IMG/VR virus record: IMGVR_UViG_3300025712_000004
Span: 33,806-97,805 of that record
DNA length: 64,000 nt
Reading direction: 5' to 3' (one strand)
Source of the DNA: a virus
Made by a program: the position numbers and the translations under genes. How positions within the stretch are numbered: position 1 is the first letter of the stretch; each line of letters starts with the position of its first letter. Positions 1-15,708 of the stretch are shown piece by piece. The notes under the pieces were generated by a model, which had not been told where the DNA came from, ran no database searches, and saw nothing but the letters and a program-made list of their open reading frames with translations.

Positions 1-321
1 CGTGGTATAGTTGATGGCTCTGATGAATATTGGAAATACATCGCAGTCGCATTCGGTCATGATTTAATCGAAGACACTAGCGTAAAAATAGACACATTAT
101 TATGGTCTAATATTCCGGTTGATGCTGTTAATGGTATCGATATGATGACGAAGCGTAATGGTGAATCTCGTACAGAATATATTGAGCGAGTAAAATCCGA
201 CAAGTACAGCCACTTAGTTAAACAGGCAGATTCGCTAAGCAATTTAACACATAGCATTCGTGCTGGTAACTCTAAGCGAATTGCTAAATACACAACATAC
301 TTATCAATATTGGGAGAATAA
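1..321 (+). CDS. RelA/SpoT-type HD hydrolase (3' part only)
   Basis: The frame is open from the window edge and stops at 319-321, so only the last 106 residues are seen. HDLIEDT (visible residues 20-26) and VKQADSLSNL (73-82) match the HDxxEDT and VKxADxxxNL signatures of the metal-dependent HD domain in SpoT and in small MESH1-type hydrolases, which remove pyrophosphate from (p)ppGpp. No synthetase or regulatory domain follows, so this looks like a stand-alone hydrolase. The first metal-binding His lies off the window. The role in infection, perhaps blunting the stringent response, is inference. The stop is followed two bases later by the next start, so the two genes form one operon. Confidence 0.72.
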   Translation, partial: RGIVDGSDEYWKYIAVAFGHDLIEDTSVKIDTLLWSNIPVDAVNGIDMMTKRNGESRTEYIERVKSDKYSHLVKQADSLSNLTHSIRAGNSKRIAKYTTYLSILGE

Positions 322-322
322 A

Positions 323-550
323 ATGAGCGTTGTAGATTTAACTAAACAGACAGCAGAGCGTGGATATTTCAGCCACAATCAAGAAATGCTGGAGAAAACT
401 AAACCATTCCTTGATGCGATATTGGCGAAATATCCTACTGGTGTCCATATCCAAAGAGTAGGCGATTTTATATATAACGTCCATATAATGAATCAGGTTT
501 GGCAATTTGAAAATGATGGTAACGTCGCACAGATGTTTCGAATTGGTTAG
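323..550 (+). CDS. hypothetical protein, 75 aa
   Basis: Not recognised. The ATG at 323 is chosen over an upstream in-frame ATG because it follows GGGAGA, which lies at the end of the HD gene, and avoids a long overlap. The product is mixed in charge and soluble, with no membrane segment or known motif. It sits in an operon with the HD hydrolase and the following endonuclease-like gene. Confidence 0.7.
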   Translation: MSVVDLTKQTAERGYFSHNQEMLEKTKPFLDAILAKYPTGVHIQRVGDFIYNVHIMNQVWQFENDGNVAQMFRIG

Positions 551-559
551 GGGGGATAT

Positions 560-1219
560 ATGTTTAACAAAGAAGAATTAGCAATTGCTCGCGTGAAATA
601 TGTCGGTAAGATGTATAGAGCTAAATACGCAGATATATCCTTCGATTTGTCTTTTGATGATTATTTAAATTTGATAACGAATGCTGGTATATCGGTCAGT
701 GATATCGGTCGTGCTGGCAATCAGTTTTGCTTAGGTAGAAAATGTACAAAAACTGGAAAGGTTGATGGGGATTTGCCATATTCTATAGGTACATGTCGAT
801 TTATAACAAAAGCAGAAAACACTGCAGAGGCAGAGAAAGGTACAACATTTAGTGCCAAGATGTCTGCTATACATAAAGGTAAAGTTGTATCAGCACCCCA
901 ACGAAAGGGGATGTCCGAACGTATGATAGGCAACACTAATCTTAAGGGCTTCAAGCAAACCGAATATAGTAAAAAAGTTACATCCGATAGAATGCTTGGC
1001 ACTTTACCATGGGATGTATATAACACAAACGAAACCCAACTAAAAGCTTGGAAAATTATGCCAGAAATACATACAAAATGGATTGAGTTTGGTAGACCTA
1101 AAACTGGATTCAGGTTAGCCAAGATATATGGCGGTCATCTAAATAAAATGGTACGTATATTTATGGACGAACCGAAGTATATTAAAATATTAAAAGAATG
1201 GAGGGTAAAATATGGATAA
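560..1219 (+). CDS. putative homing endonuclease with NUMOD3-like motifs
   Basis: The 219-aa product aligns by eye with the 6711-7286 product over the first ~95 residues: both carry a SFD(D/E) segment, a DIG...LGRKC segment and DGDLPYxIxTCRFITK. A spaced Cys/Arg block ending in Y..(N/G)TCRFI is typical of phage HNH-like free-standing endonucleases. The middle contains S.KMS..HKGK and MS..MIGN, which resemble NUMOD3 DNA-binding repeats of homing endonucleases. It lies directly upstream of the DNA polymerase gene and overlaps it by 8 bases; polymerase genes are a common target of such elements. Family membership is inferred from pattern, and catalytic residues are not assigned. Confidence 0.55.
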   Translation: MFNKEELAIARVKYVGKMYRAKYADISFDLSFDDYLNLITNAGISVSDIGRAGNQFCLGRKCTKTGKVDGDLPYSIGTCRFITKAENTAEAEKGTTFSAKMSAIHKGKVVSAPQRKGMSERMIGNTNLKGFKQTEYSKKVTSDRMLGTLPWDVYNTNETQLKAWKIMPEIHTKWIEFGRPKTGFRLAKIYGGHLNKMVRIFMDEPKYIKILKEWRVKYG

Positions 1220-3830
1220 AATATGGTATATGAATTGTGAAGCGAGAGGCAACAATATTTTGCTTACGTATTCGCACAACGGGGAAACTAAATACCAGAA
1301 AATAAGCGACTATAAACCATCGTTATTTTCTGAGTCTGCGGGTCCAACCGAATATACAGAATTACTTTCGGGTAAACATCTGTTCAAGAAAACATATAAA
1401 AATATGTGGGAAGCGAACCAAGCCATACGTCAAGCGCACGATACTGAAGGTATGACTATTTACGGTAACCGTAATTTCAACTATACGTTTTTGCATGAAA
1501 ATTTCGACGACATGGAACTGAATTATGATGCGTCAAAAATACGAGGTTTTATAATCGATATCGAATGTCCGTCGGATTTTGGTTTCCCTGAAGCTTCAAA
1601 AGCTGAGTGGGCCATCAACTTGATGTGTATACGTGATTCTATTACTGGTATATACGATGTATATGGCCTTGAGAGCTTCGCAATTGAACGATACCTCGAT
1701 AAGCTAATCGAAGGTGGTGTTACGATGGAAGAGGTCAGATACCATCAGTTTGATAGCGAAATTGACCTATTAGAAGCCATGGTAAGTTACTGGGAAAATA
1801 ATTACCCACAATACATTACCGGATGGAACATAACAAACTTCGATATGCCTTATATATACAATCGACTTCAACGTTGCGGATTTAACGCAAACCGTCTGTC
1901 TCCATGGAACTCGGTACGAGTACGTGACTTTACTGATGGCTTTGGTAAAGATGCACAAAACATTATCATCTCTGGTGTTAGTGATTTGGATTATATAGAC
2001 CTATACAAAAAGAATAGGTTTATAACTCGTGCAAGCTATAAGTTGGATTTCATACTGGAAATTGAAGGCTTAGGTAATAAGGTAGATTTCTCTCATATCG
2101 CACCGGACCTAAAAACTCTTTATCGAGTAGATTGGGATTTGTACACCGCATACAATATAATCGATGTTGCTGGTATTAAACGGTTAGACGATAAATTGGG
2201 GTTCATTGGTATATCATTTGCCGTTGCTTATGCAGCAGGAATTAATTATAGTGATGTGAGTTCTCCGGTGGCGACATGGGAAAACATTTTTTATCGGGAC
2301 TTAATTAGAAGTAATGTTATATTACCGCCTAAAAAGAACCATGATAAAATAGGTTTCGAGGGTGGGTATGTTAAAGACCCACAAACTGGTAAGCATCGTT
2401 GGGTATGTAGTTTCGATTTGGCTTCTCTTTATCCGCATTTAATAATGCAATATAATATTAGCCCAGAAACAATTAGCCAATATATGGTAGCTGGCGTGAA
2501 TGTAGATACAATGACTGAGGGTGATTATTATAAGCCACCACCATTAGATTTGTGTGTATGTCCAACAGGTAATACATTTAAGCGAGATAAAGCTGGTATT
2601 ATACCTAAGCAAATGTTACGATTATATCTTGAACGTAAAGAAATTAAGCGGCAGATGTTACAACATGAGCAAGATGTAATCGATATAGAAAACGGTAATT
2701 TTGATGAACATGCAATGTTTGGCAAGTATGGACTAAATCTAGCAACCGACACATATGAAACACTATTATCGGCAGCAAAGAAACAAGTTAGCCTGAAGGA
2801 CGGTGCGCAAATGGTTCGTAAGATTTTACTTAACTCTGCGTATGGTGCATTAGCGAATATACATTTTTGTTTGTTTGATTTACGTTTAGCTGAAAGCATA
2901 ACTAAATCAGGTCAACTTAGTATTCGTTGGATAGGCCGTGTGGTTAATGAGAAGCTAAATGCTGCGTTCGGCACCAATAAAGACTATGTGGTGTATACCG
3001 ATACCGATTCTATCTATGTTAAGTTAGAAGAGGTCGTCGAGCGTATGGGTTATTCGGATAAACCAACCGATGAAATTGTTGCCATGCTTGATAATTTCTG
3101 CTCCAGTAAAATGGAACCGATGATTAATGCAGGTTATGAAGAATTGGCGAAGTATACTAATGCATATGAGCAGAAGATGTTCATGGACCGTGAAGTTATT
3201 TCAGATAATTCTGTGTTCTGTGCCAAAAAGCGTTATGCTATGTCGGTGTGGAATTCTGAAGGTGTTGCGTTCACTGAGCCATACATTAAAGTTATGGGAT
3301 TGGATTTAGTTAAATCATCCACTCCGCAGGTCTGTAGGGACGCCATGAAGGAAACTGTACGTATGATATTAAATCATACCGAAAGTGAAGTTCAGGCATA
3401 CTTCAGGGACTTTAGAGAACGGTATAATGGATTCACACCAGAACAGATTGCCAAACCGAGTGGTGTATCTGCGATGGAAGAAAAATATTGTAATGGTGAT
3501 GGTAGTTTCCGTGATGGTACTGTATACTACATATCTAAAGCGTGTATCCATTACAACAGGCATATAGAAAAGTTGGGTTTAGATAAGGTTAAGGTGGTTG
3601 CTGGCGATAAGATTAAATATCTTGAATTGAAGCTCCCAAACAAACTAAAATCTAAAGATATTGGATTTCCTGATGAATTGCCTATTGAATTTGGTCTACA
3701 TCATAAGGTAGACTATAAGACAATGTTTGAAAAGACGTTCAAGAAGCCGATGGAAGACATCGCGAGATTGATTGGTTGGTCCCTTGAGCCTAAAGCGACA
3801 TTGAAAGGTTTATTATTTAAAAAGAAATAA
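1212..3830 (+). CDS. 43: family B DNA polymerase, T4 gp43-like
   Basis: Replicative polymerase of 872 aa (T4 gp43 is 898). The 3'-5' exonuclease motifs are present: DIE at 116-118, NITNFD (Exo II) and YNIIDV (Exo III). The polymerase motifs follow in order: FDLASLYP near residue 402 (motif A), K..LNSAYG near 535 (motif B) and YTDTDS near 598 (motif C). All catalytic acids are therefore intact. The start at 1212 follows GGAGGG with good spacing and overlaps the endonuclease-like gene upstream. The C-terminal region should carry the clamp-binding peptide. A T4-type clamp, ssDNA-binding protein and helicase loader are encoded downstream, so this is the polymerase of a T4-type replisome. Confidence 0.97.
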   Translation: MDKIWYMNCEARGNNILLTYSHNGETKYQKISDYKPSLFSESAGPTEYTELLSGKHLFKKTYKNMWEANQAIRQAHDTEGMTIYGNRNFNYTFLHENFDDMELNYDASKIRGFIIDIECPSDFGFPEASKAEWAINLMCIRDSITGIYDVYGLESFAIERYLDKLIEGGVTMEEVRYHQFDSEIDLLEAMVSYWENNYPQYITGWNITNFDMPYIYNRLQRCGFNANRLSPWNSVRVRDFTDGFGKDAQNIIISGVSDLDYIDLYKKNRFITRASYKLDFILEIEGLGNKVDFSHIAPDLKTLYRVDWDLYTAYNIIDVAGIKRLDDKLGFIGISFAVAYAAGINYSDVSSPVATWENIFYRDLIRSNVILPPKKNHDKIGFEGGYVKDPQTGKHRWVCSFDLASLYPHLIMQYNISPETISQYMVAGVNVDTMTEGDYYKPPPLDLCVCPTGNTFKRDKAGIIPKQMLRLYLERKEIKRQMLQHEQDVIDIENGNFDEHAMFGKYGLNLATDTYETLLSAAKKQVSLKDGAQMVRKILLNSAYGALANIHFCLFDLRLAESITKSGQLSIRWIGRVVNEKLNAAFGTNKDYVVYTDTDSIYVKLEEVVERMGYSDKPTDEIVAMLDNFCSSKMEPMINAGYEELAKYTNAYEQKMFMDREVISDNSVFCAKKRYAMSVWNSEGVAFTEPYIKVMGLDLVKSSTPQVCRDAMKETVRMILNHTESEVQAYFRDFRERYNGFTPEQIAKPSGVSAMEEKYCNGDGSFRDGTVYYISKACIHYNRHIEKLGLDKVKVVAGDKIKYLELKLPNKLKSKDIGFPDELPIEFGLHHKVDYKTMFEKTFKKPMEDIARLIGWSLEPKATLKGLLFKKK

Positions 3831-3837
3831 ATATTAG

Positions 3838-3873
3838 TTGACTTTACACTGGAACCTAGTAACATAGGTTCCA
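3838..3873 (+). promoter_or_regulatory. sigma70-like promoter with inverted repeat around the -10 box
   Basis: TTGACT (3838-3843), 16 bp spacer, TAACAT (3860-3865). The perfect arms TGGAACCT (3850-3857) and AGGTTCCA (3866-3873) enclose the -10 box. It lies just after the polymerase stop and drives the 3906 gene, whose leader carries an ACGGAG ribosome site. Confidence 0.7.
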
Positions 3874-3905
3874 AGATAAAGATAATTAATTAAACGGAGA
3901 AAATT

Positions 3906-4649
3906 ATGAAAACTACAATCAATGCAAACGAACTTAAAGAACTTAGTGCCTGTACGTCAGGATATAAAACATTCGTTGAAGCTCATGAAGATAAAACTGT
4001 TAAGCTGAGTGAAGCTTTAGAATCTAATGGTATTGATGACCTGTTTTGGTTGTTAGATGAAATACCCCTATCAACAGAGCAAGAAAATGATTTACGGTTG
4101 TTGGCTTGTGATTATGCATCAGACGTTTTACATATTTTCGAAGAAAAATATCCTACTGATAAAAGACCAAGATTGGCCATTGAAGCAGCTAGAAAATATA
4201 TAAATGGTGAGATAAGTAAAGAGGAATTAGATGATGTTGTTGTTGCTGCTGCTGCTGCTCGTGCTGCTGCTCGCTCTGCTACTGTTGCTGCTCGTGCTGC
4301 TGCTCGCTCTGCTACTGTTGCTGCTGTTGCTGATTATGCTGCTAGTGCTGTTGCTGATTATGCTGCTAGTGCTACTACTTCTTCTCGTGCTGCTGCTCGC
4401 TCTGCTACTGTTGCTGCTGTTGCTGATTATGCTGATTATGCTGCTGCTGCTGCTCGTGCTGCTTCTCGCTCTGCTACTGTTGCTGCTGCTGCTGCTCGTG
4501 CTGATTATGCTGCTGCTGCTACTGTTGCTGCTGTTGCTGATTATGCTGCTAGTGCTGTTGCTGATTATGCTGCTAGTGCTACTACTTCTTCTCGTAAAAC
4601 GCAATCAGAGCAATTAATGAAGGTTTTATTGAAATGGGAAAATAAATAG
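3906..4649 (+). CDS. phage protein with long alanine-rich repeat tail
   Basis: 247 aa. The first ~113 residues are a soluble domain (ACTSGYKTFVE; LRLLACDYA; AIEAARKYINGE) that resembles a widespread phage family of unknown function whose C-terminal part is made of Ala-rich, often Trp- or Tyr-containing repeats. From residue ~114 to ~230 the chain is almost only Ala, Arg, Ser, Thr, Val, Asp and Tyr (ARAAARSATVAA, VADYAASA). It ends in a short charged tail, KTQSEQLMKVLLKWENK. The start follows ACGGAGAAAATT. It is a single-gene unit with its own promoter, and another promoter follows it. No function can be assigned. Confidence 0.85.
   Translation: MKTTINANELKELSACTSGYKTFVEAHEDKTVKLSEALESNGIDDLFWLLDEIPLSTEQENDLRLLACDYASDVLHIFEEKYPTDKRPRLAIEAARKYINGEISKEELDDVVVAAAAARAAARSATVAARAAARSATVAAVADYAASAVADYAASATTSSRAAARSATVAAVADYADYAAAAARAASRSATVAAAAARADYAAAATVAAVADYAASAVADYAASATTSSRKTQSEQLMKVLLKWENK
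4245..4595 (+). repeat. GCT-rich in-frame codon repeat
   Basis: 117 codons, nearly all ending in T, with Ala encoded almost only by GCT. Larger blocks are duplicated: the segment TVAAVADYAASAVADYAAS followed by ATTSSR occurs twice, at the middle and at the end. Its base composition is unlike the flanks. Open frames on the other strand and in the other plus frames here are by-products of the repeat. Confidence 0.9.
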
Positions 4650-4685
4650 TTGACACGGTCTTGGGGTCATGTATAATGGCTCCAA
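4650..4685 (+). promoter_or_regulatory. sigma70-like promoter with inverted repeat around the -10 box
   Basis: TTGACA (4650-4655), 16 bp, TATAAT (4672-4677). The arms CTTGGGGTCA (4660-4669) and TGGCTCCAAG (4677-4686) are complementary over 10 positions, two of them G-T pairs. It begins directly after the stop of the Ala-rich gene. The core is identical to the promoter at 28990. Confidence 0.8.
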
Positions 4686-4706
4686 GATGAACAAACGGAG
4701 AAAAAT

Positions 4707-5066
4707 ATGAGTCAGTTATTTATAGATAGTGTTACTGAATTAGCAAAGTTAAACCATAACAAGTTTACTGCCATTGAGCAGTTGGCATTAAAGCAATTAG
4801 AAAGTAAATGCCACGAATCATTATCTCATATTGATAGAGCTATCAGGATATCGAAAAATGCCGATACAGAAATAAAAAATAGCCCAGAAAAAATGGAAGA
4901 TGTTCGTCGATATTATTCGTATATATTATCTTCGTGCGAAATGATGTCGTCTTCGTTTTTACTTAAGCCTGTTAAGGGTCATGTAATCCAACGAGACCGT
5001 ACATTTATTGCGAAATATATGGAAGCTGCAAAAATTTTATTAGAAAAACATAAAATTAGTAGTTGA
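4707..5066 (+). CDS. hypothetical protein, 119 aa
   Basis: Not recognised. A predicted all-helical, soluble protein (heptad-like LALKQLESKCHESL; EKMEDVRRYYSYILSSCEM). The start follows ACGGAGAAAAAT behind the 4650 promoter. Its TGA stop lies inside the -35 box of the next promoter, so genes here are arranged as single transcription units. Confidence 0.8.
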   Translation: MSQLFIDSVTELAKLNHNKFTAIEQLALKQLESKCHESLSHIDRAIRISKNADTEIKNSPEKMEDVRRYYSYILSSCEMMSSSFLLKPVKGHVIQRDRTFIAKYMEAAKILLEKHKISS

Positions 5067-5097
5067 CAATAGAATCGAGTCATATTATAATGGCTCC
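5063..5097 (+). promoter_or_regulatory. sigma70-like promoter with partial inverted repeat
   Basis: TTGACA (5063-5068), 17 bp, TATAAT (5086-5091). GAGTCA and TGGCTC flank the -10 box and pair with one G-T. The leader GATAAACAAACGGAGAAA is almost the same as at 4650 and 28990. It drives the 48-aa gene and possibly the structured RNA after it. Confidence 0.75.
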
Positions 5098-5120
5098 AAG
5101 ATAAACAAACGGAGAAAGTT

Positions 5121-5267
5121 ATGTCATCATTCAAGCACCATTGGGCATTTAATGTTGTTTCGATAAGTAGAGAAACTATAAAAAGACCTTTACTTACTCT
5201 TTGGAAACATGATAAACTAGTTCAGTACAAGGGACAAAGAATTATCCCTTGCAAATATATCGGTTAG
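5121..5267 (+). CDS. small protein, 48 aa
   Basis: A short frame with a strong promoter 30 bases upstream and ACGGAGAAAGTT before the ATG at 5121. The product is basic (MSSFKHHWAF at the start, GQRIIPCKYIG at the end) and has no membrane segment. The promoter and ribosome site are the evidence that it is real; the function is unknown. Confidence 0.65.
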   Translation: MSSFKHHWAFNVVSISRETIKRPLLTLWKHDKLVQYKGQRIIPCKYIG

Positions 5268-5271
5268 ATAT

Positions 5272-5444
5272 ATTTATGTAAATGTTTAGTATCTGGTGAC
5301 GTATGGGTGTCGATAGCCCAATATGAATAGAATATATGTTGTTTGTTCCTTCTGTATATTCATGGCATATTCATGGCCCGTATGGTGGGATTAAGACTTA
5401 AGATTGGCAAGTTCGATTCTTGCACACTAAACAATTACATAAAT
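5272..5444 (+). ncRNA. structured RNA candidate with tRNA-like T-arm
   Basis: ATTTATGTAAATGTTTAGT (5272-5290) and ACTAAACAATTACATAAAT (5426-5444) pair at 18 of 19 positions and close a 173-nt element. Two bases inside the 3' strand is a perfect T-arm: GCAAG, loop TTCGATT, CTTGC (5407-5423), with the canonical tRNA T-loop pattern TTCRANN. The interior has possible helices (GAATATA with TATATTC) and a tandem 11-nt repeat, ATATTCATGGC, at 5356-5377. I cannot draw a standard D-arm and anticodon arm, and no reading frame fills the region. It may be a tRNA mimic, a Y-RNA-like RNA or a decayed tRNA. Transcription could come from the promoter at 5063. Confidence 0.5.
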
Positions 5445-5466
5445 GTATTTATTATAGGAGAAAAAT

Positions 5467-5730
5467 ATGCAAAACGTACAATTTATTTTGAACGAAGATG
5501 GCTTCGCGTTTGAAGTTAAATGTGAAATCGACCTAGAAAATTTAGAAGGTTGCGAGTTATTTGAAACTGAAGAAGAGTTATGCCAAGCACACCGAGAAAT
5601 CCACAAAAATTCTGGATTTCGAGCGGAACTTATCACGATTGATGAAGCCGAAATTGTATCAAATTTTGATGGTGTTATTGGTGTAGTTGATTCTTGTGTT
5701 GCGGTGTATGTATCGGCCTTCTCGTATTAG
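5467..5730 (+). CDS. hypothetical acidic protein, 87 aa
   Basis: Not recognised. Strongly acidic (EIDLENLEGCELFETEEEL), soluble, with a hydrophobic C-terminus. It starts after TAGGAGAAAAAT. It is followed 10 bases later by the Mom-like gene and probably shares its transcript. Confidence 0.75.
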   Translation: MQNVQFILNEDGFAFEVKCEIDLENLEGCELFETEEELCQAHREIHKNSGFRAELITIDEAEIVSNFDGVIGVVDSCVAVYVSAFSY

Positions 5731-5814
5731 GGGATTTTTTATGAGTAAAGATAAATTTAGTATAGGGATAATAGATAAATCTAGATGTTCTAGAATCTTA
5801 AACCAATGGCACTA

Positions 5815-5821
5815 TTTAAAG
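5815..5821 (+). other. possible -1 frameshift site T TTA AAG
   Basis: In the frame starting at 5741 the codons are TTA AAG, preceded by T, giving an X XXY YYZ heptamer. The zero frame stops two codons later (ACG TGA). A -1 slip continues as GAC GTG AGC into the rest of the Mom-like fold. The YYZ part, AAAG, is the same as in the lambda G-GT site (GGGAAAG). No clear downstream stem was found. Confidence 0.45.
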
Positions 5822-6164
5822 ACGTGAGCAAATCGTTTAAAAGTGGAATAAATTATGGACTATTCGATGATGGGAAGTTAGTTGGCGTATGTATATATAC
5901 AGGATTTCCTGTACCTGAATTAGTTTATGGTATGTTTGGTTTGGATAGAGACGACCAACAAGGGTTTTATGAACTTAGTCGGTTATGTATCAGCCCACAA
6001 ACACAAGAATCTGAACATAATATAGCCAGTTGGTTTATAAGTAAAACCATCAAGGAACTTAGAAGAAATTTTAGTGTTCGTGCTATTCTAAGTTATGCAG
6101 ACGACGACCACCATAATGGTATAATTTATAAGGCTTCAAACTTCACTTATTATGGCAAAACAGC

Positions 6165-6173
6165 AAAAAAAAA
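6165..6173 (+). other. A9 run where the Mom-like frame returns
   Basis: Nine A bases followed by G. Loss of one A, by transcript slippage or mutation, joins the middle segment to the C-terminal segment of the Mom-like protein (AKK then SDFWI). Without it the middle frame ends at 6228 with an unrelated tail. Confidence 0.45.
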
Positions 6174-6428
6174 GCGATTTTTGGATTCGCCACAAAAATG
6201 GGACATACACCAAACATTCACGGGGTAAGATTAGTGGATTGGATGGCGAATGGCGACCGCGCAGTATAAAACACCGATTTGTTATGGTCTATGATGGAAC
6301 TTTGGACATGAAATGGGAAGAACAATTATGGATTAGAACGCCAGATAGAATAAGACCAACAGTTGTGGCTGGTCCATCAAATGGTATACAAAAAACACCA
6401 TTCGTTAAATTGTTATTTGGTAACTCGC

Positions 6429-6701
6429 ATGATTGAAATAAAAGAAATCGCAGGTTTCGATGAAGCCAAGCAACGAAAAGTTATGAACGTGTTATTATAT
6501 GGCACAAGTAAAGCAAAAACCGCTTTACAATTCGAAACGAGTCGTGGTACTATTATTCGCATCGAACAGCAGATGGCTCCAATATTAGAAGCCGAAGCCG
6601 ATGTGTGTATTGGTCAAGATATACATGAAGCAATATCAACATTTGGCCACAATAAAAAAATTAAACGTACACCGTTTACAGTATTAGTGTTAAACTATTA
6701 G
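6429..6701 (+). CDS. small HTH-like protein, 90 aa
   Basis: The ATG at 6429 overlaps the stop of the Mom-like gene (ATGATTGA), which suggests translational coupling and supports the C-terminal frame of that gene. The segment KVMNVLLYGTSKAKTALQFETSRGTIIRIEQQM has the look of a helix-turn-helix (TSKAKTALQFETSRGTI). The family is not recognised. A DNA-binding role is inference. Confidence 0.6.
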   Translation: MIEIKEIAGFDEAKQRKVMNVLLYGTSKAKTALQFETSRGTIIRIEQQMAPILEAEADVCIGQDIHEAISTFGHNKKIKRTPFTVLVLNY

Positions 6702-6710
6702 GAACTAGAA

Positions 6711-7286
6711 ATGATACAAAATGAAATAGATATAGCTAAGCAATATTATATAAGTAAACAATATAGTAGTAAAAGGTTGGGTATACCATTCGTATTGTCA
6801 TTTGATGAATTAATAGATAAGATACATGAAGCTGGTATATTTCCTAGTGATATTGGCTGTAGGCGTGGACAATATGTTCTTGGTAGAAAGTGCCAAAATA
6901 CATCAAAAACTGATGGCGATTTACCATATTATATAAATACTTGTAGATTTATTACTAAGCACGACAATGATATAGAGCGAGTTATGCCAGTGACAGATGA
7001 GCATAAATATAATTTATCGGTTGCTTTATTAAATGGAAACAACTTTAGTAGAGGTAATAAGGGTTCCGACTCCTTGAAGTTTAAAGGTTGGTACATAACA
7101 CCTAAAGGGAAGTTCGACGATATGAAACTGGCTGGTATAGCTAACGGTATATCACCTAGAACTATACATAGTTGGTGTGGAAAAGAAAATGAACGAGTGT
7201 TCAAGAAAAGTAGGAAAGGTTCTACTACGTTGGACATGTTGGGCAAAACGCCTAAGGATTTAGGATTTGGGTTTTTGTCTAAATAA
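6711..7286 (+). CDS. putative homing endonuclease, paralogue of 560-1219
   Basis: 191 aa. The N-terminal ~90 residues match the 560-1219 product: LSFDELIDKIHEAG, DIG, LGRKC, DGDLPYYINTCRFITK. The C-terminal parts differ: here DEHKYNLSVALLNGNNFSRGNKG resembles a NUMOD3-like element, followed by a possible HTH (GIANGISPRTIHSWC). Swapped DNA-binding modules on a shared catalytic core are usual for homing endonucleases. It lies next to the gp59-like gene. The catalytic residues are not assigned. Confidence 0.55.
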   Translation: MIQNEIDIAKQYYISKQYSSKRLGIPFVLSFDELIDKIHEAGIFPSDIGCRRGQYVLGRKCQNTSKTDGDLPYYINTCRFITKHDNDIERVMPVTDEHKYNLSVALLNGNNFSRGNKGSDSLKFKGWYITPKGKFDDMKLAGIANGISPRTIHSWCGKENERVFKKSRKGSTTLDMLGKTPKDLGFGFLSK

Positions 7287-7297
7287 TAGGAGATACC

Positions 7298-7903
7298 ATG
7301 ATACAGAAACTATCACCTTATCAGGCTTGTAAGTTGTTTATGAACATCAGGACGCATTTTAGTAATGAGAAATTTGATATAACTGCGTCTAACGGTATCC
7401 GATACAGTGAAGCGAGTTTCGAAAAGCGCAAAGATAAAGGCTACTTCACGAAACTGGCACACGAATACGCTTCCGGTGATTTAGGTTACTACTTTATGAG
7501 TAACTTAATAGATGGAAACGAACATCCGTCAGGGATGATGGATATAACATATCGGGAATGGAAGGCACGAATGCATAAGATTGAGCACATCTTCAATGAA
7601 GATTGTATGTTGATTTATTCGCATATGATGCAACAGGAACTGACGTTTAATGATTTCTTCGTGTCCAACAATGGTGGACTCCCGATATCAATACAAATGC
7701 TAAACGGTAACATGATAAGCATAGAAACTATTTGCCTTATAGATGCACTCTTTGATGGGTTCATTATCCAACGAATGGACACGCAAATAACAGATAGGTT
7801 TGTCTGGGACAAGATTAGAATTAGAATTGTTAAATATGCACCATGGATAAAACGATATTATAAAGCTGAAGAAATTAAAGCTATACTACGAAATTACACT
7901 TAA
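7298..7903 (+). CDS. 59: helicase loader, T4 gp59-like
   Basis: 201 aa (T4 gp59 is 217). It follows gp59 along its length: YQACKLFMNIRTHF at the N-terminus, ASFEKRKDKGYFTKLAHEYA, YYFMSNLID, IEHIFNEDCMLIY, then ML.GNMISIETICLIDALF and FVWDKIRIRI. gp59 binds forked DNA and gp32 and loads the gp41 helicase. The gene lies directly upstream of the gp32-like gene, as expected for partners, and starts after TAGGAGATACC. The cognate helicase is not in this window. Confidence 0.85.
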   Translation: MIQKLSPYQACKLFMNIRTHFSNEKFDITASNGIRYSEASFEKRKDKGYFTKLAHEYASGDLGYYFMSNLIDGNEHPSGMMDITYREWKARMHKIEHIFNEDCMLIYSHMMQQELTFNDFFVSNNGGLPISIQMLNGNMISIETICLIDALFDGFIIQRMDTQITDRFVWDKIRIRIVKYAPWIKRYYKAEEIKAILRNYT

Positions 7904-7928
7904 ATTATAAAACTTAAAGGATAAAAAT

Positions 7929-9011
7929 ATGTCATTCGCAAATATGAAGAAAAACAACGCTAGCGCACTACAAGGTTTACAGGCACAAGTACAGCAGTCA
8001 TTAGAAAACCAAAATGGTGGCGTAGCAAAAGACCCACGCTTCTGGAAACACACATACGACAAAACTACTAAAGTTGGTAGTGCTGTTATTCGCTTCTTAC
8101 CGTTTGGTGATGGTGAGCGTCTACCTTGGGCATCATGGCAGGGTTACAACTTTAAAACGGCTGCAGGTAGCTATTGGAACCGTTCACGAGTAACTATTGG
8201 CCAACCAGACCCAATGGCAGAAATCAACAAAACTGCATGGGCGCGTAATTTAGCTGGTGACCAAAATGGTTGTAAAGACCGCACAATTAAGAAACGTTTT
8301 GTTGCGAACATTGTGGTCATTAGTGACCCAGCGAACCCACAAAACAACGGCCAGAACTTCTTATATGAATACGGTCCTTCTATCCAAGACTTGATTTTGG
8401 CTAAGATGGCACCAAAATACGAAGACCAAGCAAAGGTTCCAGTATTTGATTGGTGGAAAGGTGCAAACTTTGAGCTTCGTTCATGTGAAGATAAAAAGTT
8501 CTTAAGCTATAAAGATAGTACTTTTGCTCCGGCAGGTCCATTACATCCAGATGATGCAGTGCTTGAGAAAATCTACAACGGTATGCATGATTTGGTTGAG
8601 TTCGAGAAAGAAGAAGGCAACTATAAGTCTTACGATGACTTGAAAGCTGATGCGATTAAAGTATTGGGTGCACGTTTCGTCGCTGGTATCTTCGGTGAAG
8701 AATTCTCGCCTGAAGCTGCAGCGCAAAGTGGTGGTAATCCTTTTGGTCAAGCCCAACAGCAAGCCCAAAAGCAAGCAGCACCTCAAGGTAATCCTTTTGG
8801 TCAACAGCAAGCAGCGGTAAGTAATGAGCCAGCGGCAGCAGGTAACCCGTTTGAACAGCAAGCAGCCAGTAATGAGCCAGCGGCAGCAGGTAACCCGTTT
8901 GAACAGCAAGCAGCCAGTAATGAGCCAGCGGCAGCAGGTAACCCGTTTGAACAGCAAGCAGCAAGCACTGAAAATGTAGCAGCCGACCCATTTGCAAATA
9001 TTCCTTTGTAA
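7929..9011 (+). CDS. 32: single-stranded DNA-binding protein, T4 gp32-like
   Basis: 360 aa (T4 gp32 is 301). The core OB-fold region is clear: FWKHTYDKTTKVGSAVIRFLP, then FVANIVVISDPANPQNNGQN followed by FLYEYG, which parallels gp32 [20 protein letters not shown]. The N-terminus carries the basic/polar cooperativity segment. The zinc-binding CxxC of gp32 is absent: only one Cys lies in that region (NGCKDR). The C-terminus is lengthened by tandem repeats rich in Gln, Ala and Pro (NPFEQQAASNEPAAAG) and ends DPFANIPL, the usual place for contacts with partner proteins. It coats template DNA at the fork. The start follows AAAGGATAAAAAT. Confidence 0.93.
   Translation: MSFANMKKNNASALQGLQAQVQQSLENQNGGVAKDPRFWKHTYDKTTKVGSAVIRFLPFGDGERLPWASWQGYNFKTAAGSYWNRSRVTIGQPDPMAEINKTAWARNLAGDQNGCKDRTIKKRFVANIVVISDPANPQNNGQNFLYEYGPSIQDLILAKMAPKYEDQAKVPVFDWWKGANFELRSCEDKKFLSYKDSTFAPAGPLHPDDAVLEKIYNGMHDLVEFEKEEGNYKSYDDLKADAIKVLGARFVAGIFGEEFSPEAAAQSGGNPFGQAQQQAQKQAAPQGNPFGQQQAAVSNEPAAAGNPFEQQAASNEPAAAGNPFEQQAASNEPAAAGNPFEQQAASTENVAADPFANIPL
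8820..8963 (+). repeat. three tandem 48-bp units in the gp32-like C-terminus
   Basis: Units begin at 8820, 8868 and 8916 and are nearly identical, encoding SNEPAAAGNPFEQQAA. A shorter related NPFGQ(A/Q)Q motif precedes them at about 8735-8810. The repeat lengthens the disordered tail without breaking the frame. Confidence 0.92.
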
Positions 9012-9069
9012 TTTGGTTGAAGTGTAGTATAATGTAGTTATCTAAGGTGGCTGGAATGGTCTAGCCACC
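9006..9069 (+). promoter_or_regulatory. promoter and leader stem-loop before 9098
   Basis: TTGTAA (9006-9011), 16 bp, TATAAT (9028-9033) overlaps the end of the gp32-like gene. No inverted repeat flanks this -10 box. Instead the leader holds GGTGGCTGGA (9046-9055) and TCTAGCCACC (9060-9069), a 10-bp stem with one G-T pair and an ATGG loop. No T-run follows it directly, so it is more likely a leader or mRNA-stability hairpin than a terminator. Confidence 0.55.
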
Positions 9070-9097
9070 GAATATTAAAATTTTTGGAGAATATTAA

Positions 9098-9298
9098 ATG
9101 TCAGTACAATTAAATGAGCGTAAATTAGAATTAGCAGCCGACGTAGTAAAATTTGTTGAACAGTACAACGATTGCATAAGCCAAACAGACGTATTACGCA
9201 AATGTGAATCAGTTGATGACTTTGATGCATTAGAAGATGAAGTAACAATCGCTATCGATACAGGCAACATCGAAGCACTATCTGAAGCACTAATTTAA
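9098..9298 (+). CDS. hypothetical acidic protein, 66 aa
   Basis: Not recognised. A short, acidic, helical protein (ESVDDFDALEDEVTIAIDTGN). The start follows TTGGAGAATATTAA. It is first in a run that leads into RNase H and the sliding clamp. Confidence 0.75.
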   Translation: MSVQLNERKLELAADVVKFVEQYNDCISQTDVLRKCESVDDFDALEDEVTIAIDTGNIEALSEALI

Positions 9299-9309
9299 TA
9301 GGTGATGTT

Positions 9310-9492
9310 ATGGCGAAGACAGTCAAGGTAAAAAAACATAAGCGCGACGGAGTGGTTGTCGAAGCACACGACAGAGAAATCACCCGTGGTAAAGAATCAC
9401 TATCAAACAAGATTAAAAGTAAGGCCATAGAAAAAGCTAAAGGCCAGAAATTAAAGAAACTATTTTTTGGAGAGAACAATGATACTACTTGA
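9310..9492 (+). CDS. hypothetical basic protein, 60 aa
   Basis: Not recognised. Very rich in Lys (KVKKHKRDG; NKIKSKAIEKAKGQKLKK), so nucleic acid binding is possible. The start follows GGTGATGTT. The end overlaps the RNase H gene by 14 bases and supplies its GGAGAG ribosome site. Confidence 0.7.
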   Translation: MAKTVKVKKHKRDGVVVEAHDREITRGKESLSNKIKSKAIEKAKGQKLKKLFFGENNDTT

Positions 9493-10396
9493 TTTTAGTG
9501 CGATTATATTTGCTGCGATTCATGTTGATATTAAAGGTGGAACTAAACCAAACTTTGAATACATTCGCCACTTAGCACTTAATACAATTCGTCACCAGAA
9601 CAACATGCATAAACGAGAATACGGTGAAATGTATTTGATATTTGATTCGAAGTCTTGGAGACAGTCAGCGTTCCCACTATATAAATGGGCAAGACAACAC
9701 GACCGAGAAATAAATCCAGACCAAGATTGGGAAGTTTTATTTGAAATGGTAGAGGAAATAAAGCGCACATTAATTGAGCATTTCCCATACCCATCGGTAG
9801 AAGTTAAGTTTGCCGAAGCAGATGATATTATCGGTGTCATGTGTAGAAACGCCAAAGAAAAGGTTTTGGTTAGTTCAAACGATAAAGATTTCGGTGGTTT
9901 GTTGAAGTATAAGCGAGTGTCACAATATAGACCGTCGCAGAAAAGCTTCCTTGAAATAGCAGACCCAGTACGGTTCGAATATGAATTGATAATGAAAGGC
10001 GATAAGTCTGATGGTGTTCCAAACATATTCAGTCCTGATGATTTTCTAAAGCAGCAGGTACTAGATAAAGAAGCCGGATTAAAGCCACAACGTGCTAAGC
10101 CAGTATCACAAAAATATATGGATAGTATGTGGGAAGTATACAGTTCGAATGATGAGGCATTAATCGAAAAAGAGTTTGGCCCATTATATAAAAACTTTAG
10201 ACGCAACCGTAGATTAGTATCATTAGACTGGATACCAGATATTTTAGTTGATTCGATAAATAAACAGTTGCAAAACTTAACAAGACAGCCTATCATGAAG
10301 GCTATGGAATATATGACAACGAACAGAATGACTTTGATGGCGCACCACTTAGGTGACTTCGAACCAAACCGTACGTTAAAAACATCTTTAATTTAG
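9479..10396 (+). CDS. rnh: RNase H / 5'-3' exonuclease, T4 Rnh-like
   Basis: 305 aa, the same length as T4 RNase H, a FEN-1-type nuclease that removes RNA primers from lagging-strand fragments. Metal-binding acids are in place: DFSAI at the start, D..SWR...Y..K near 55-70, EADDIIG near 118, SSNDKDF near 137 and GDKSDGVPNI near 180. The ATG at 9479 follows GGAGAGAACA. The next gene is the sliding clamp. Confidence 0.92.
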   Translation: MILLDFSAIIFAAIHVDIKGGTKPNFEYIRHLALNTIRHQNNMHKREYGEMYLIFDSKSWRQSAFPLYKWARQHDREINPDQDWEVLFEMVEEIKRTLIEHFPYPSVEVKFAEADDIIGVMCRNAKEKVLVSSNDKDFGGLLKYKRVSQYRPSQKSFLEIADPVRFEYELIMKGDKSDGVPNIFSPDDFLKQQVLDKEAGLKPQRAKPVSQKYMDSMWEVYSSNDEALIEKEFGPLYKNFRRNRRLVSLDWIPDILVDSINKQLQNLTRQPIMKAMEYMTTNRMTLMAHHLGDFEPNRTLKTSLI

Positions 10397-10405
10397 GAGA
10401 AATTT

Positions 10406-11077
10406 ATGAAAATATCAGAAGAAACATTAATCGTATTAGGCAACATGGCCAAACTAAACCCACACTTAGTAATCGAAGCCGGAAGTAAAATCCGAAGCAT
10501 CAATGAAATTGGTTCTTACATCATCGAAGTTGAATGTAATGAAACGTTCCCAGTGCAGGTTGCACTACACGACTTAGGTGGCTTCCTGAAGGTATTAAGT
10601 ATCTTCGAAGAGCCAGAGTTAACATTCACTGATAAGTATGTTGAAATCACTGATGAATTCGCCTCACAAAAATATTATTTTTCTGAGCCGGACGAGCTAA
10701 TTTACGACAACGACGAAGCTACCCAATTAGATTTTGGTATAAACTTCAAGTTAGAATTCGCGAAGTTCGACCGAGCATTAAAAGCTGCTGGCGTTAATGG
10801 CGTAGAAGATATCATATTTGTTGGTACAGATGCTGGTATATTCTTGGAAGCATCAGATAAAGAAAACCCAACTCGTGCATTCACTATCCAAGTAAGTGAA
10901 GAAAACCATGGCGAATTTAGAGCATGTATGCGCCATGGCAAGAAAAACAAAATCGGTGTGTTGCCAATGGATTACGATGTTAGTATCTGTAAAGATGGCG
11001 CTATCCGTTTCGCATCAGACATCGAAGAGTTTGATTTAGTGTACTTAATGGCTTTAGAAGCCGATTCTGAATTTTAA
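10406..11077 (+). CDS. 45: sliding clamp, T4 gp45-like
   Basis: 223 aa (T4 gp45 is 228). It matches gp45 at the N-terminus (MKISEETLIVLGNMAKLNP; VALHDLGGFLKVLSIFEEPE) and in the conserved end, LMALEADSEF. A trimeric clamp that tethers the polymerase to DNA; in T4 it also activates late transcription. The start follows TAGGAGAAATTT. Clamp-loader genes (44/62) that follow gp45 in T4 are not found here. Confidence 0.9.
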   Translation: MKISEETLIVLGNMAKLNPHLVIEAGSKIRSINEIGSYIIEVECNETFPVQVALHDLGGFLKVLSIFEEPELTFTDKYVEITDEFASQKYYFSEPDELIYDNDEATQLDFGINFKLEFAKFDRALKAAGVNGVEDIIFVGTDAGIFLEASDKENPTRAFTIQVSEENHGEFRACMRHGKKNKIGVLPMDYDVSICKDGAIRFASDIEEFDLVYLMALEADSEF

Positions 11078-11087
11078 GGAGTAACAT

Positions 11088-11696
11088 ATGGCAGATTACG
11101 ACGAACAGCGAGAATTCCATGAAATGTTAGATGGAATTAAAAACGGTGATGTGTTTACTTGGCACGGTAACTCCGATAAAACATATGGCTTAGCTGATGG
11201 TGATGTTTATATTGCATTATCAGATAAACCAGACATTTTACACAGAGAAAAGGATACTGGCCGTTACATTATTATCCGTTCACCTAGTGGACATGTATGT
11301 TTATCTACTGGCGACATCAAGAAATGTGGATATATATTGCAAGGTAACGAACGTATAGTTACTAAGCCATTAAATCGCCCACCATTTTGGTTATCATTAG
11401 AACCTAATGCACCTGTTGTATCAGATGGTAAATCATCATCATATTACAACCTGTTACTGAATGAGCGTTTAACTAAAAAGATAAAAGACCAGCTAGAAAA
11501 AGGTGAGCCGTTAAATCTTGAAACTGGCGACATTATCGAAATGATGTTTGGTAATGACTTCGACTTTGGTAATATCGAAAAGGCATTACGTCGAATATTC
11601 GAAGCCAAGCATGGTCGCGGTAAAGCCGGAGTTGATATTAAATATGATATTAACAAGTGCCATTATTTTCTTGACCAGATAGAAGAAAAATGTTAA
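11088..11696 (+). CDS. protein with C-terminal DUF3310-like domain
   Basis: 202 aa. The C-terminal segment FDFGNIEKALRRIFEAKHGR then DIKYDINKCHYFLDQI has the spacing of DUF3310 (GN..KY..R...K.....D..K...YL), a small phage domain often called a nucleotide-kinase-like protein without proof. The N-terminal ~140 residues are not recognised. The start follows AAGGAGTAACAT. Confidence 0.55.
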   Translation: MADYDEQREFHEMLDGIKNGDVFTWHGNSDKTYGLADGDVYIALSDKPDILHREKDTGRYIIIRSPSGHVCLSTGDIKKCGYILQGNERIVTKPLNRPPFWLSLEPNAPVVSDGKSSSYYNLLLNERLTKKIKDQLEKGEPLNLETGDIIEMMFGNDFDFGNIEKALRRIFEAKHGRGKAGVDIKYDINKCHYFLDQIEEKC

Positions 11697-11702
11697 TTTA
11701 TA

Positions 11703-12284
11703 ATGATTATTTTTAGTGATGCTTTATATAATCAGGATAAAATCGCTGGAGTATACGTAATATACTCTGGTGATGGTGTCCCTCTGTATTGTGGTCAGTC
11801 TTGCAACATTATGGAAAGGTTGGGAGTTCATAGGAAATGGGTCAGCGATAGTTATTATGCCGAGATTATACTATTAGAACCAAACAAGCACCTACGGATG
11901 GAATTTGAGGGTCTATACCATGATGTGTGTGGGTATACTTTATTATCCAAGAAATACAATGGGCGAGATACACCATGTAAATTTAATGGTATGGAGTTTG
12001 ATAGTAAAACTGATATGTACAATCATGTTTCTGATATTGGTGGTATATCCACCACCACGGTAGAGAAATATATACGCAAATATAATTGTAAAACGTTATT
12101 AGATATATTAACATTGGGTAATAATGAGCAGCAATCTAGAATCGATGCCGTATCAGCATCAAATGCTCGTAGGGTCGGAAAAAAACTTAATATGAAACCT
12201 AAGATATGCCCACATTGTGGTGCTGAAGGTAAAGGAGGCAATATGACAAGATATCATTTCAACAATTGCAAAGATTCATCATGA
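11703..12284 (+). CDS. GIY-YIG homing endonuclease
   Basis: 193 aa. The N-terminus is a GIY-YIG nuclease domain: GVYVIYSG (GVY for GIY), then LYCGQS (YCG for YIG) and the conserved Arg in NIMERLGVH. The middle holds an HTH-like segment (ISTTTVEKYIRKYNCKTLLDIL). The C-terminus is a Cys2-His-Cys finger, CPHCGAEGKGGNMTRYHFNN plus C, of the kind found in phage homing endonucleases. It is a free-standing gene placed just before uvsW and overlaps its start by ATGA. It probably spreads by cutting phage genomes that lack it at this site. Confidence 0.85.
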   Translation: MIIFSDALYNQDKIAGVYVIYSGDGVPLYCGQSCNIMERLGVHRKWVSDSYYAEIILLEPNKHLRMEFEGLYHDVCGYTLLSKKYNGRDTPCKFNGMEFDSKTDMYNHVSDIGGISTTTVEKYIRKYNCKTLLDILTLGNNEQQSRIDAVSASNARRVGKKLNMKPKICPHCGAEGKGGNMTRYHFNNCKDSS

Positions 12285-13825
12285 ATGTATATGATACTAC
12301 TGTATACTTCATAAAGACTAGTGAAGTATATGGGACGATTCAATGCCAAGATTTTGATACCATTGTAGCATTAAGAGAATACTTTAGTTTCTTTGCCGAT
12401 GGTTACCAGTTCCAACCTAGCTTCATCAATTTACAATGGGATGGCAAAATTCGTCTGATTGATGCTAGCAATCAAATTCGTCTGGGTCTATGGCATGAGG
12501 TAAAATCGTTCTGTGAGCGATATAATTTACCATTCATGTTGGACCCAAAAATTCAACGGTTTAGTTTAGACAAGAAAAAGTTCGAAGGTTTTGTTGAAAA
12601 CTTAGACGTTCATGCTGGTGGTGATTCGATTACTCCATACGACTATCAAGTTGACGCAGCACATCATGCATTAGAAAGTCAGCGTTGTTTATTGCTATCA
12701 CCGACATCTTCGGGAAAGTCCCTGATACAGTATATGCTGATACGAATGTATGAAAAGATACTACCGGACCAGAAAATGCTAATAATCGTTCCTACGGTCG
12801 GTTTGGTCACTCAAATGCAAGGTGACTTCAATGATTATAGTTCGAATATTGAATGGGATGCGGAATCTAGCATTCATGGTATAAAAGCTGGCGTATGTAA
12901 GGATACAAATAAACATATTGTTGTCTCAACATACCAAAGTTTAATCCGTGTTGATGTGTCGTTCTTTCATCAGTTTAGTGCTATCATGTGCGACGAAGTT
13001 CATACCGCCACGGCTAAAAGTATTACTCGCATTTTAGATAACGGTGTTAATGCATCATGGAGAGTTGGACTTACTGGAACACTAGATGAGTGTAAAACCA
13101 ATAAACTTATACTTACTGGTATGTTTGGTCCAGTGTATACAGTAATATCAACAAAAGAACTTATGGACTCTGGCCAAGTCGCTCAGTTGAAGGTTAATGT
13201 AGCACTACTGAAGCATAACGAAAAAGATTGTAAGTTTATGCGGTCAGCACCACGTGGCCCAATAGAAGAATCAACCGGAAAGAAGAAGCGAGTTAAGGCG
13301 ACATATAAAGAAGAGATAGATTTTATTATATCTTCTGAAGCCAGAAATAAATTCATAATGAATTTTACCGCCAAACTTAAAGGTAATTCTATACTAATGA
13401 TAAATATCGTAGAACATGGCGAGAATTTATTTAAGTGGATGAAGGCAGCATTCCCAGATAGAGAAATTTATTTATATACTGGGGCAACAAAAGCAGACGA
13501 ACGAGAAGAGATTCGTCAATTAATGGAGAAGTCAGAAAATGCAATTATTATTGGTAGTTTGGGTGTGCTTAGCACTGGAATTAGTATTAAACGCTTACAT
13601 AATCTTGTGTTCGCTCATCCTAGTAAATCCAGAGTCAAGGTGTTACAAAGCGTTGGTAGGTTGTTGCGCTTATCTAAGTTCGGCAATCTTGTCCATATGT
13701 TTGATATGGTGGATGATTTCTTAATTGGTGCCTACGAAAATTATACGTATGGCCATGGCCAGAAGCGAGTTAGTTTCTACCACGACCAACAATTCGATAC
13801 CGAAGTATTTAAAGTGACATTATAG
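12281..13825 (+). CDS. uvsW: UvsW-like superfamily 2 helicase
   Basis: 514 aa (T4 UvsW is 503). Walker A PTSSGKS near 141, DEVH near 237, GLTGTLDE (motif III) and SVGRLLR (motif VI) are intact, and the N-terminal ~110 residues resemble the UvsW substrate-binding domain. UvsW unwinds R-loops and branched DNA, promotes fork regression and helps shift T4 from origin-driven to recombination-driven replication. The start at 12281 overlaps the stop of the endonuclease gene (ATGA). Confidence 0.92.
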   Translation: MNVYDTTVYFIKTSEVYGTIQCQDFDTIVALREYFSFFADGYQFQPSFINLQWDGKIRLIDASNQIRLGLWHEVKSFCERYNLPFMLDPKIQRFSLDKKKFEGFVENLDVHAGGDSITPYDYQVDAAHHALESQRCLLLSPTSSGKSLIQYMLIRMYEKILPDQKMLIIVPTVGLVTQMQGDFNDYSSNIEWDAESSIHGIKAGVCKDTNKHIVVSTYQSLIRVDVSFFHQFSAIMCDEVHTATAKSITRILDNGVNASWRVGLTGTLDECKTNKLILTGMFGPVYTVISTKELMDSGQVAQLKVNVALLKHNEKDCKFMRSAPRGPIEESTGKKKRVKATYKEEIDFIISSEARNKFIMNFTAKLKGNSILMINIVEHGENLFKWMKAAFPDREIYLYTGATKADEREEIRQLMEKSENAIIIGSLGVLSTGISIKRLHNLVFAHPSKSRVKVLQSVGRLLRLSKFGNLVHMFDMVDDFLIGAYENYTYGHGQKRVSFYHDQQFDTEVFKVTL

Positions 13826-13826
13826 C

Positions 13827-13866
13827 TTGACATTAGCTTGGGACTCTGTAAAATGGGTTCCAAGCT
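13827..13866 (+). promoter_or_regulatory. sigma70-like promoter with long inverted repeat
   Basis: TTGACA (13827-13832), 16 bp, TAAAAT (13849-13854). AGCTTGGGACTC (13835-13846) pairs with GGGTTCCAAGCT (13855-13866) over 12 positions with two G-T pairs; the -10 box is in the loop. It lies just after the uvsW stop. Confidence 0.75.
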
Positions 13867-13885
13867 AAGTTGTTTGGAGAAACAC

Positions 13886-14014
13886 ATGAAGAAACCTAAA
13901 TCTACATTAAAGCAATTAAAACATATAAAACTAGTTGCACCCGTTTGCCCTATATGTAATACTAGGGTTTATTCGTTAACAGACAACACACATATTAAAG
14001 GTAAAGGACATTAA
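13886..14014 (+). CDS. small Cys-motif protein, 42 aa
   Basis: The ATG at 13886 follows TTTGGAGAAACAC, 20 bases behind the promoter. The product is basic and holds one CPIC knuckle (VCPICNTRVYSL), perhaps half of a zinc site. One base separates it from the next start. The promoter and ribosome site support it; the function is unknown. Confidence 0.65.
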   Translation: MKKPKSTLKQLKHIKLVAPVCPICNTRVYSLTDNTHIKGKGH

Positions 14015-14015
14015 C

Positions 14016-14432
14016 ATGAAGTTATTAACTGTATTAACATTAGGTTTATATAAAACTAAGCCAGCGATGACTGTAAAGAAATCATCAGTAAAGAAACCAT
14101 TGCGTCCATTTATCGAAGATGTGTGGCAGCTAAAAGACCATAGCGAATGGATAACACCATTACCAGAAACAATCACACGTATTGAAATTCTAAACGTATC
14201 AAGAGATGGTGATAAGGTTCTGTGTCGTAAAATTATACAAGACGGTAAAGCTGTATCTGTAAAACTCAAACAAGAAATGTTGATGTGCACACTACATTCA
14301 ATGTATCGATTATATGAGTCACCGTTAAGAACTCGGTCTAAACATGAGCGCGAGTTTATGAATAGGCATAATAAACCATTAAGTAAGGTTCCACCAATGC
14401 CACCATGCAAGCCACCATTAAGGAAGATATAA
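14016..14432 (+). CDS. hypothetical basic protein, 138 aa
   Basis: Not recognised. Basic, with proline-rich ends (KPPLRKI at the C-terminus). No membrane segment. It is co-transcribed with the 42-aa gene and the following hypotheticals. Confidence 0.72.
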   Translation: MKLLTVLTLGLYKTKPAMTVKKSSVKKPLRPFIEDVWQLKDHSEWITPLPETITRIEILNVSRDGDKVLCRKIIQDGKAVSVKLKQEMLMCTLHSMYRLYESPLRTRSKHEREFMNRHNKPLSKVPPMPPCKPPLRKI

Positions 14433-14434
14433 TT

Positions 14435-14737
14435 ATGCACGACCTACAAGAACGAGTAATGGACGCAAACCATGCTAGACAAATATCGGCCAAATATATT
14501 GCTACGATTGCGAACGTAAAGGACGCATTAGTTGCTGTTAGCTTCAAGGCGCATGAGGGTAAATACTCAGTCAGTTTTATGCATGACCGCGAATTGGAAT
14601 ATAAGGGCCGTAGTTTGGTTGCAGATTTCCTAAAACGGTTCCATGGTTTTGATGTTGTCGACAGTGAAGGTGTTGATAACAAACAGAACAATCACAGAAC
14701 AATTATTATTAACTGGAGAAAAGATAATGCTAAATAA
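14435..14737 (+). CDS. hypothetical protein, 100 aa
   Basis: Not recognised. The ATG at 14435 is preferred because AAGGAAG lies at the right distance; an upstream in-frame ATG would overlap the previous gene. It ends inside the next gene by 11 bases, which suggests coupling. Confidence 0.7.
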   Translation: MHDLQERVMDANHARQISAKYIATIANVKDALVAVSFKAHEGKYSVSFMHDRELEYKGRSLVADFLKRFHGFDVVDSEGVDNKQNNHRTIIINWRKDNAK

Positions 14738-15161
14738 AGTCCAACTGTATGCTGAACTTGATACAGACGGTAAAATCGATTTTACCAACTTAGAAGATGA
14801 ATTGGCCAGATGCCCATTACTATTTTCTAAATGGCTCAAGTATCACTTCGATTATAAGTCTGCAGAAATTCGTGGTGAATCTCTATTGGCCGAAATGGTA
14901 GTAAAGAAACAATTGTTTTATTCTGGTGCAGCGGCAGCAGAAGATTATCGTGGGCATCCTATGTCACATATTAGTGCCAAAAACTCTACAGAGATGGCTA
15001 GACTAATCGATGGAGATACTGAGTTGTGTGCTCTACGCGAAAAGGCCGACCTGAATAAAGCATTTAAGGAAGTTTGCGAGCACATGATTGAATCAATCAA
15101 GTATAGACCGAACCACCTTAAAACAATTTTAGATGTCCGCAAATTCCAATCTGGAGAATAA
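14727..15161 (+). CDS. hypothetical protein, 144 aa
   Basis: Not recognised. The start at 14727 (MLNKVQLYAEL) follows CTGGAGAAAAGATA, while upstream in-frame starts lie deep in the previous gene. A soluble, mixed-charge protein. Confidence 0.72.
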   Translation: MLNKVQLYAELDTDGKIDFTNLEDELARCPLLFSKWLKYHFDYKSAEIRGESLLAEMVVKKQLFYSGAAAAEDYRGHPMSHISAKNSTEMARLIDGDTELCALREKADLNKAFKEVCEHMIESIKYRPNHLKTILDVRKFQSGE

Positions 15162-15162
15162 T

Positions 15163-15642: not shown

Positions 15643-15645
15643 GTG

Positions 15646-15681
15646 TTTACTTTACCGTAGGGTTATATATAATGACTCTAT
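15646..15681 (+). promoter_or_regulatory. sigma70-like promoter with inverted repeat
   Basis: TTTACT (15646-15651), 16 bp, TATAAT (15668-15673). TAGGGTT (15658-15664) and GACTCTA (15674-15680) pair with two G-T pairs around the -10 box; a further G-T pair extends the stem by one. It is followed by a CCGGAG ribosome site for the 15709 gene. Confidence 0.72.
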
Positions 15682-15708
15682 CATAAAGAAATCACACCGG
15701 AGAAGGTC

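Follow-up and report, generated by a model that had tools for sequence, protein, structure and literature searches.

A structured element with a canonical tRNA T-arm and a long closing stem in a T4-like phage: a candidate oversize tRNA mimic

Between two replication genes of a phage lies a 173-nt element whose ends are joined by a long inverted repeat and which carries a canonical tRNA T-arm, raising the question of whether it is a tRNA, a mimic of one, or a structure of another kind that includes a tRNA part. The window analysed here, 64,000 nt in length, comprises bases 33806–97805 of a linear 97.8-kb IMG/VR virus record (IMGVR_UViG_3300025712_000004), and the source is a marine, T4-like phage related to Vibrio phages.

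Genomic setting and flanking reading frames

Among named phages, the DNA polymerase is nearest to those of Vibrio phages henriette 12B8, V6Aob and 2.058.O (~56% identity), in all three of which the polymerase gene is in two pieces with ORFs inserted, whereas that of the window is a single ORF. The interval between polymerase and loader genes is short in the Vibrio phage relatives; in the window it is a 3.4-kb island of small ORFs, within which the element lies. The same island holds a Mom-like DNA modification protein (phrog_1384) at window positions 5806–6228. The features of the region are as follows.

1212–3830, DNA polymerase, a T4-type replication gene
5063–5091, + strand, sigma-70-type promoter TTGACA-17-TATAAT, then leader GGCTCCAAGATAAACAAACGGAG; 12 of 12 consensus bases
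5121–5267, + strand, 48-aa ORF in the interval from promoter to element, from translation; leader and RBS common to other ORFs
5467–5730, + strand, 87-aa ORF downstream of the element, RBS AGGAG just 3′ of the stem
7298–7903, gp59-like loader, a T4-type replication gene
7929–9011, gp32-like protein, a T4-type replication gene

An earlier note on this DNA had placed a strong promoter upstream of the element, and the promoter at 5063–5091 indeed matches the consensus at every position; its description of the stretch as gene-free was too strong, since the promoter and the stem are separated by a probable 48-aa ORF, and another of 87 aa begins at 5467. The promoter and leader module recurs at window positions 4650 and 28990, each time ahead of small ORFs and in the general form TTGACA-16/17-TATAAT-GGCTCCAAGATNAACAAACGGAG, and the small ORFs behind it are probably early phage genes. 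Because this module precedes ORFs at those two further sites, the 48-aa ORF is itself probably a gene. No useful homologue was found for either the 48-aa or the 87-aa ORF, the latter giving a weak match to PHROG 25589. Both ORFs abut the element closely, the stop codon of the first (5265–5267) overlapping the outer end of the stem and the start of the second lying 16 bases past the stem, which itself ends 4 bases before the RBS. The inverted repeat was also considered as a place where late promoters might be hidden (TATAAATA), an idea that was dropped as no late consensus could be derived.

Closing stem, T-arm and interior

The anatomy originally described is placed exactly as claimed: a 19-bp inverted repeat with one mismatch pairs 5272–5290 with 5426–5444, a canonical T-arm occupies 5407–5423, two bases inside the 3′ strand, and neither a D-arm nor an anticodon arm is recognisable. 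When G.U pairs are counted, the stem of the + strand RNA grows to 25 bp (17 + 8) around a single A.A mismatch, giving the following parts.

5265–5281, + strand, outer closing helix, 5′ strand; 17 bp with 5435–5451, some of them G.U (MFE fold; pair probabilities 0.85–1.0)
5282 and 5434, + strand, A.A mismatch between inner and outer helix (MFE fold)
5283–5290, + strand, inner acceptor-like helix, 5′ strand; 8 bp with 5426–5433 (MFE fold, pair probabilities)
5291–5406, + strand, interior; D-arm and anticodon arm unrecognisable, 11-nt tandem duplication ATATTCATGGC
5407–5423, + strand, T-arm GCAAG-TTCGATT-CTTGC (MFE fold, pair probabilities, shuffle test)
5426–5433, + strand, inner acceptor-like helix, 3′ strand (MFE fold, pair probabilities)
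5435–5451, + strand, outer closing helix, 3′ strand (MFE fold, pair probabilities)

The closing stem and T-arm together are a real, non-random sequence feature. The element folds to an MFE of -54.9 kcal/mol (z -3.9), a stability reached by none of 200 shuffles, and within a sense transcript covering 5093–5730 the closing stem retains pair probabilities of 0.8–1.0 and the T-stem 0.92–0.93. Forty dinucleotide-shuffled versions of the full window contain no inverted repeat of 19 bp with at most one mismatch within 200 nt. For a perfect 5-bp T-arm with a TTCRA loop the expectation is 0.58 per window; the single one present, its invariants complete (G53-C61, TTCRANN), falls exactly within the closing stem. 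The minus strand folds to only -39.2 kcal/mol, and since it is the G.U pairs that stabilise the + strand, the latter is favoured as the RNA. On the 3′ side two nucleotides, A5424 and C5425, separate the T-arm from the inner helix, although A5291 and U5292 could conceivably bridge this gap by A.C and U-A pairs and so restore a continuous stack.

The interior is of a different character. Residues 5291–5406 are no more stable than their shuffles (z +0.33) and the 150-nt core (5284–5433) folded alone scores z -0.57, so that the closing stem and T-arm account for everything unusual about the element. For the interior, two folds differ by no more than 0.7 kcal/mol, one with two hairpins and the other with one long irregular hairpin that closes directly on the acceptor helix.

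The position of the stem, running from the stop codon of one ORF almost to the RBS of the next, raises the possibility that the duplex and T-arm act in cis, as an RNase III and/or RNase P processing signal between the 48-aa and 87-aa cistrons that sets mRNA ends and stability, the excised RNA being functionless. The unstructured interior would fit a spacer, and the 25-bp duplex is of a size that RNase III cuts. Against this, cutting by RNase III calls for no full canonical T-arm, and the RBS is not covered by the stem, and on balance this reading is possible but rather unlikely.

Known RNA classes and T4 RNAC

Among the collections searched the element currently appears to be an orphan. The search against Rfam proposed in the earlier note, with the tRNA, tmRNA and YrlA models included, returned no family at the element at either gathering or relaxed thresholds, nor did the tRNA model (RF00005) match there at E ≤ 1. 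ARAGORN called no tRNA or tmRNA gene at the element under default settings, and only low-threshold noise with its intron, mitochondrial and tmRNA options; a tRNA with a 62-nt anticodon intron, which emerged only at reduced threshold and whose intron is too short for group I, was rejected. By blastn, the element has no relative in four related genomes, and among phages and plasmids it matches only pieces of T-arm and short stretches by chance. Scanning IMG/VR and GTDB for its patterns gave nothing or chance coding matches, and a covariance model (CM) of the element run against 57 viral records and other loci recovered only itself.

The proposal of a tRNA mimic is supported by anatomy, an invariant-complete T-arm set on an acceptor-like stem with no anticodon arm, and fails as membership of the tRNA or tmRNA models. 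With tRNA (RF00005) the element shares the invariant T-arm and acceptor-like stem, and differs in having no D-arm, no anticodon arm and no CCA, a length of 149 nt and a 25-bp closing stem. The tRNA-like domain of tmRNA has the same acceptor and T-arm, and there too a long helix stands where the anticodon arm would be, yet the element is far too short for a tmRNA, and neither a model or ARAGORN match nor a tag reading frame was found in it.

A bacterial Y RNA had also been suggested. In YrlA (RF02553) a large stem joins the ends of the molecule and is accompanied by a tRNA-like domain (PMC8394870). The long 5′/3′ end-joining stem and tRNA-like T-arm of the element resemble this gross plan, and a phage Y RNA of this type would bind Ro/Rsr through the stem and PNPase through the tRNA-like domain. 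However, the YrlA covariance model does not match the element, its sole weak match lying elsewhere, and the element has neither a D-arm nor the GGTCCGA motif, a mark of YrlA. The contig encodes no Ro/Rsr (TROVE) protein, although the host could supply one. A Y RNA is highly improbable.

More improbable still, and hardly credible, is that the element is a retron-type msr/msd RNA or a small mobile element bounded by terminal inverted repeats. In favour is the inverted repeat at its ends, with some 130 nt in between; against it, no second copy exists in the contig, none was found in the relatives searched, the contig holds no reverse transcriptase (RVT_1), and the T-arm would be left unexplained. 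A parallel search for RNA ligase gave no match in the contig, but it matched no control genome either and is uninformative.

By layout, the known RNA that the element most resembles is RNAC of phage T4.

NC_000866, 70908–71046, T4 RNAC (species 1 RNA), 139 nt

RNAC is transcribed, has been detected by Northern blot (PMC9697503, PMC3014915) and, known for decades, is still termed an RNA of unknown function (PMC9697503). Its parts are an acceptor-like helix, two hairpins, of which the first is long and irregular, and a canonical T-arm. Both RNAs belong to T4-type phages, measure ~140–150 nt, carry the T-arm on the 3′ side of an acceptor-like helix and go unmatched by the tRNA model, and in both one long irregular hairpin replaces the D and anticodon arms, in the element only in the near-optimal single-hairpin fold, whose topology is that of RNAC. 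The element has the layout of the RNAC family (acceptor helix, long irregular hairpin, T-arm, ~140–150 nt). T4 RNAC differs in lying inside a tRNA cluster, in its second hairpin before the T-arm, which in the element is missing or tiny, and in having no long outer duplex. The suggestion that the element is a new phage RNA may still be right, yet the earlier note made no mention of RNAC, a known RNA of the same layout.

An alignment of RNACs from seven T4-like phages shows that RNAC helices covary across Tevenvirinae, 23 of the 46 predicted pairs having changed at both positions in one or more sequences (n = 7). In six of these sequences two mismatches interrupt the middle of the acceptor, which is fully paired in that of the Yersinia phage. 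The CM built from this alignment (R1) scored the element no higher than noise, with a 5.8-bit overlap at 5246–5373, and the reverse model, built from the element (R2), did not match RNAC. The two have a layout in common; neither sequence nor CM detects a relation or places the element in the family.

The preferred reading, which stands about an even chance of being correct, is that the element is an RNAC-like oversize tRNA mimic of ~150 nt cut from an early operon. The + strand would encode an RNA spanning about 5284–5433, made from the 5063 promoter along with the small ORFs, in which the T-arm would stack on the acceptor-like inner helix to present the T-arm/acceptor half of a tRNA, a larger anticodon-less domain taking the place of the remaining tRNA parts. 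RNase III may cut the 25-bp outer duplex, and RNase P or other tRNA-maturation enzymes may read the T-arm/acceptor stack, so that a stable RNA is released from the mRNA. Neither charged nor decoded, this RNA could then engage tRNA-binding factors, as T4 RNAC may do. In favour of the mimic are the stem and T-arm beyond chance, the + strand preference, the layout common with RNAC, and a 140-nt tRNA-like RNA on the same contig with an 8-bp acceptor and a GCCA end. Against it are the lack of a homologue and hence of covariation, an interior at shuffle level, the failure of sequence and CM comparison with RNAC in either direction, the 2-nt 3′ offset of the T-arm unless bridged as above, the missing CCA end, and a location outside the phage's own tRNA region.

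Oversize tRNA-like RNAs in this and other phages

That tRNA region, on the minus strand of another part of the record (locus L039, record bases 1–20000), carries a tRNA-Met. The 140-nt tRNA-like RNA lies there (L039 3428–3289, minus strand), with a perfect 8-bp acceptor GGACUGUA/UACAGUCC, a weak T-arm and a large extra domain (z -3.3). Nearby (L039 3521–3434, minus strand) is an 88-nt degenerate, class-II-like tRNA with a CCA end and an odd anticodon loop, which scores 28.7 bits against the tRNA model, just under the Rfam cut-off of 29. In Vibrio phage V6Aob (L054 4125–4229), a 105-nt tRNA-like RNA called by neither ARAGORN nor Rfam directly follows tRNA-Ile and tRNA-Gly.

Such RNAs bear on the view that a tRNA gene has decayed or been disrupted here, keeping its T-arm and acceptor while its D and anticodon parts were lost or expanded by insertion, for example through the 11-nt duplication. 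In favour of this, blastn against phages shows the same 19 bases at the T-arm of a tRNA-Met annotated in an Aeromonas phage; this phage, V6Aob and CIP9 have other tRNAs that are degenerate or oversize; and the interior shows no selection for stability. Decay would not be expected to bring the gain of a 17-bp outer duplex, however, nor to leave the T-arm perfect, and the element is not in the tRNA region, making this origin unlikely.

A descriptor requiring a strict T-arm (G53-C61), a 7-bp acceptor and a total length of 98–190 nt returned five places in 1.67 Mb of phage DNA, compared with 0–1 in shuffles: the window element, RNAC of the Yersinia phage, a 130-nt RNA of phage CIP9, one true tRNA and one weak match. 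As the descriptor was written after the element and RNAC were known, this recurrence is supportive of the tRNA mimic rather than independent.

A broader conjecture, put forward tentatively, is that T4-like phages repeatedly evolve oversize tRNA-like RNAs reduced to the T-arm/acceptor half, which serve as decoys for proteins that handle tRNAs or as their ligands (RNase P, EF-Tu and host tRNA-cleaving defence being examples of possible partners), and that the element is an independent, sequence-unrelated case that brings its own excision duplex of the RNase III type. Phage tRNAs are regarded as a countermeasure against tRNA-cleaving host defence (PMC10264068), which makes a decoy role conceivable. 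A second, sequence-unrelated half-tRNA RNA in a distant T4-like phage, together with the 140-nt one, would suggest convergent selection for mimics of a tRNA half, and, if so, would offer a comparative handle on the binding partners of such RNAs.

Two side observations were made. The 130-nt RNA of Enterobacter phage CIP9 (L065 557–686), which is unannotated and adjoins RNAC, resembles a tRNA-Leu whose anticodon region has been enlarged. Elsewhere in the window, at the junction of convergent + and - gene blocks, an 18-bp inverted repeat with at most one mismatch and a T-rich tail (34970–35013) is probably a two-way terminator.
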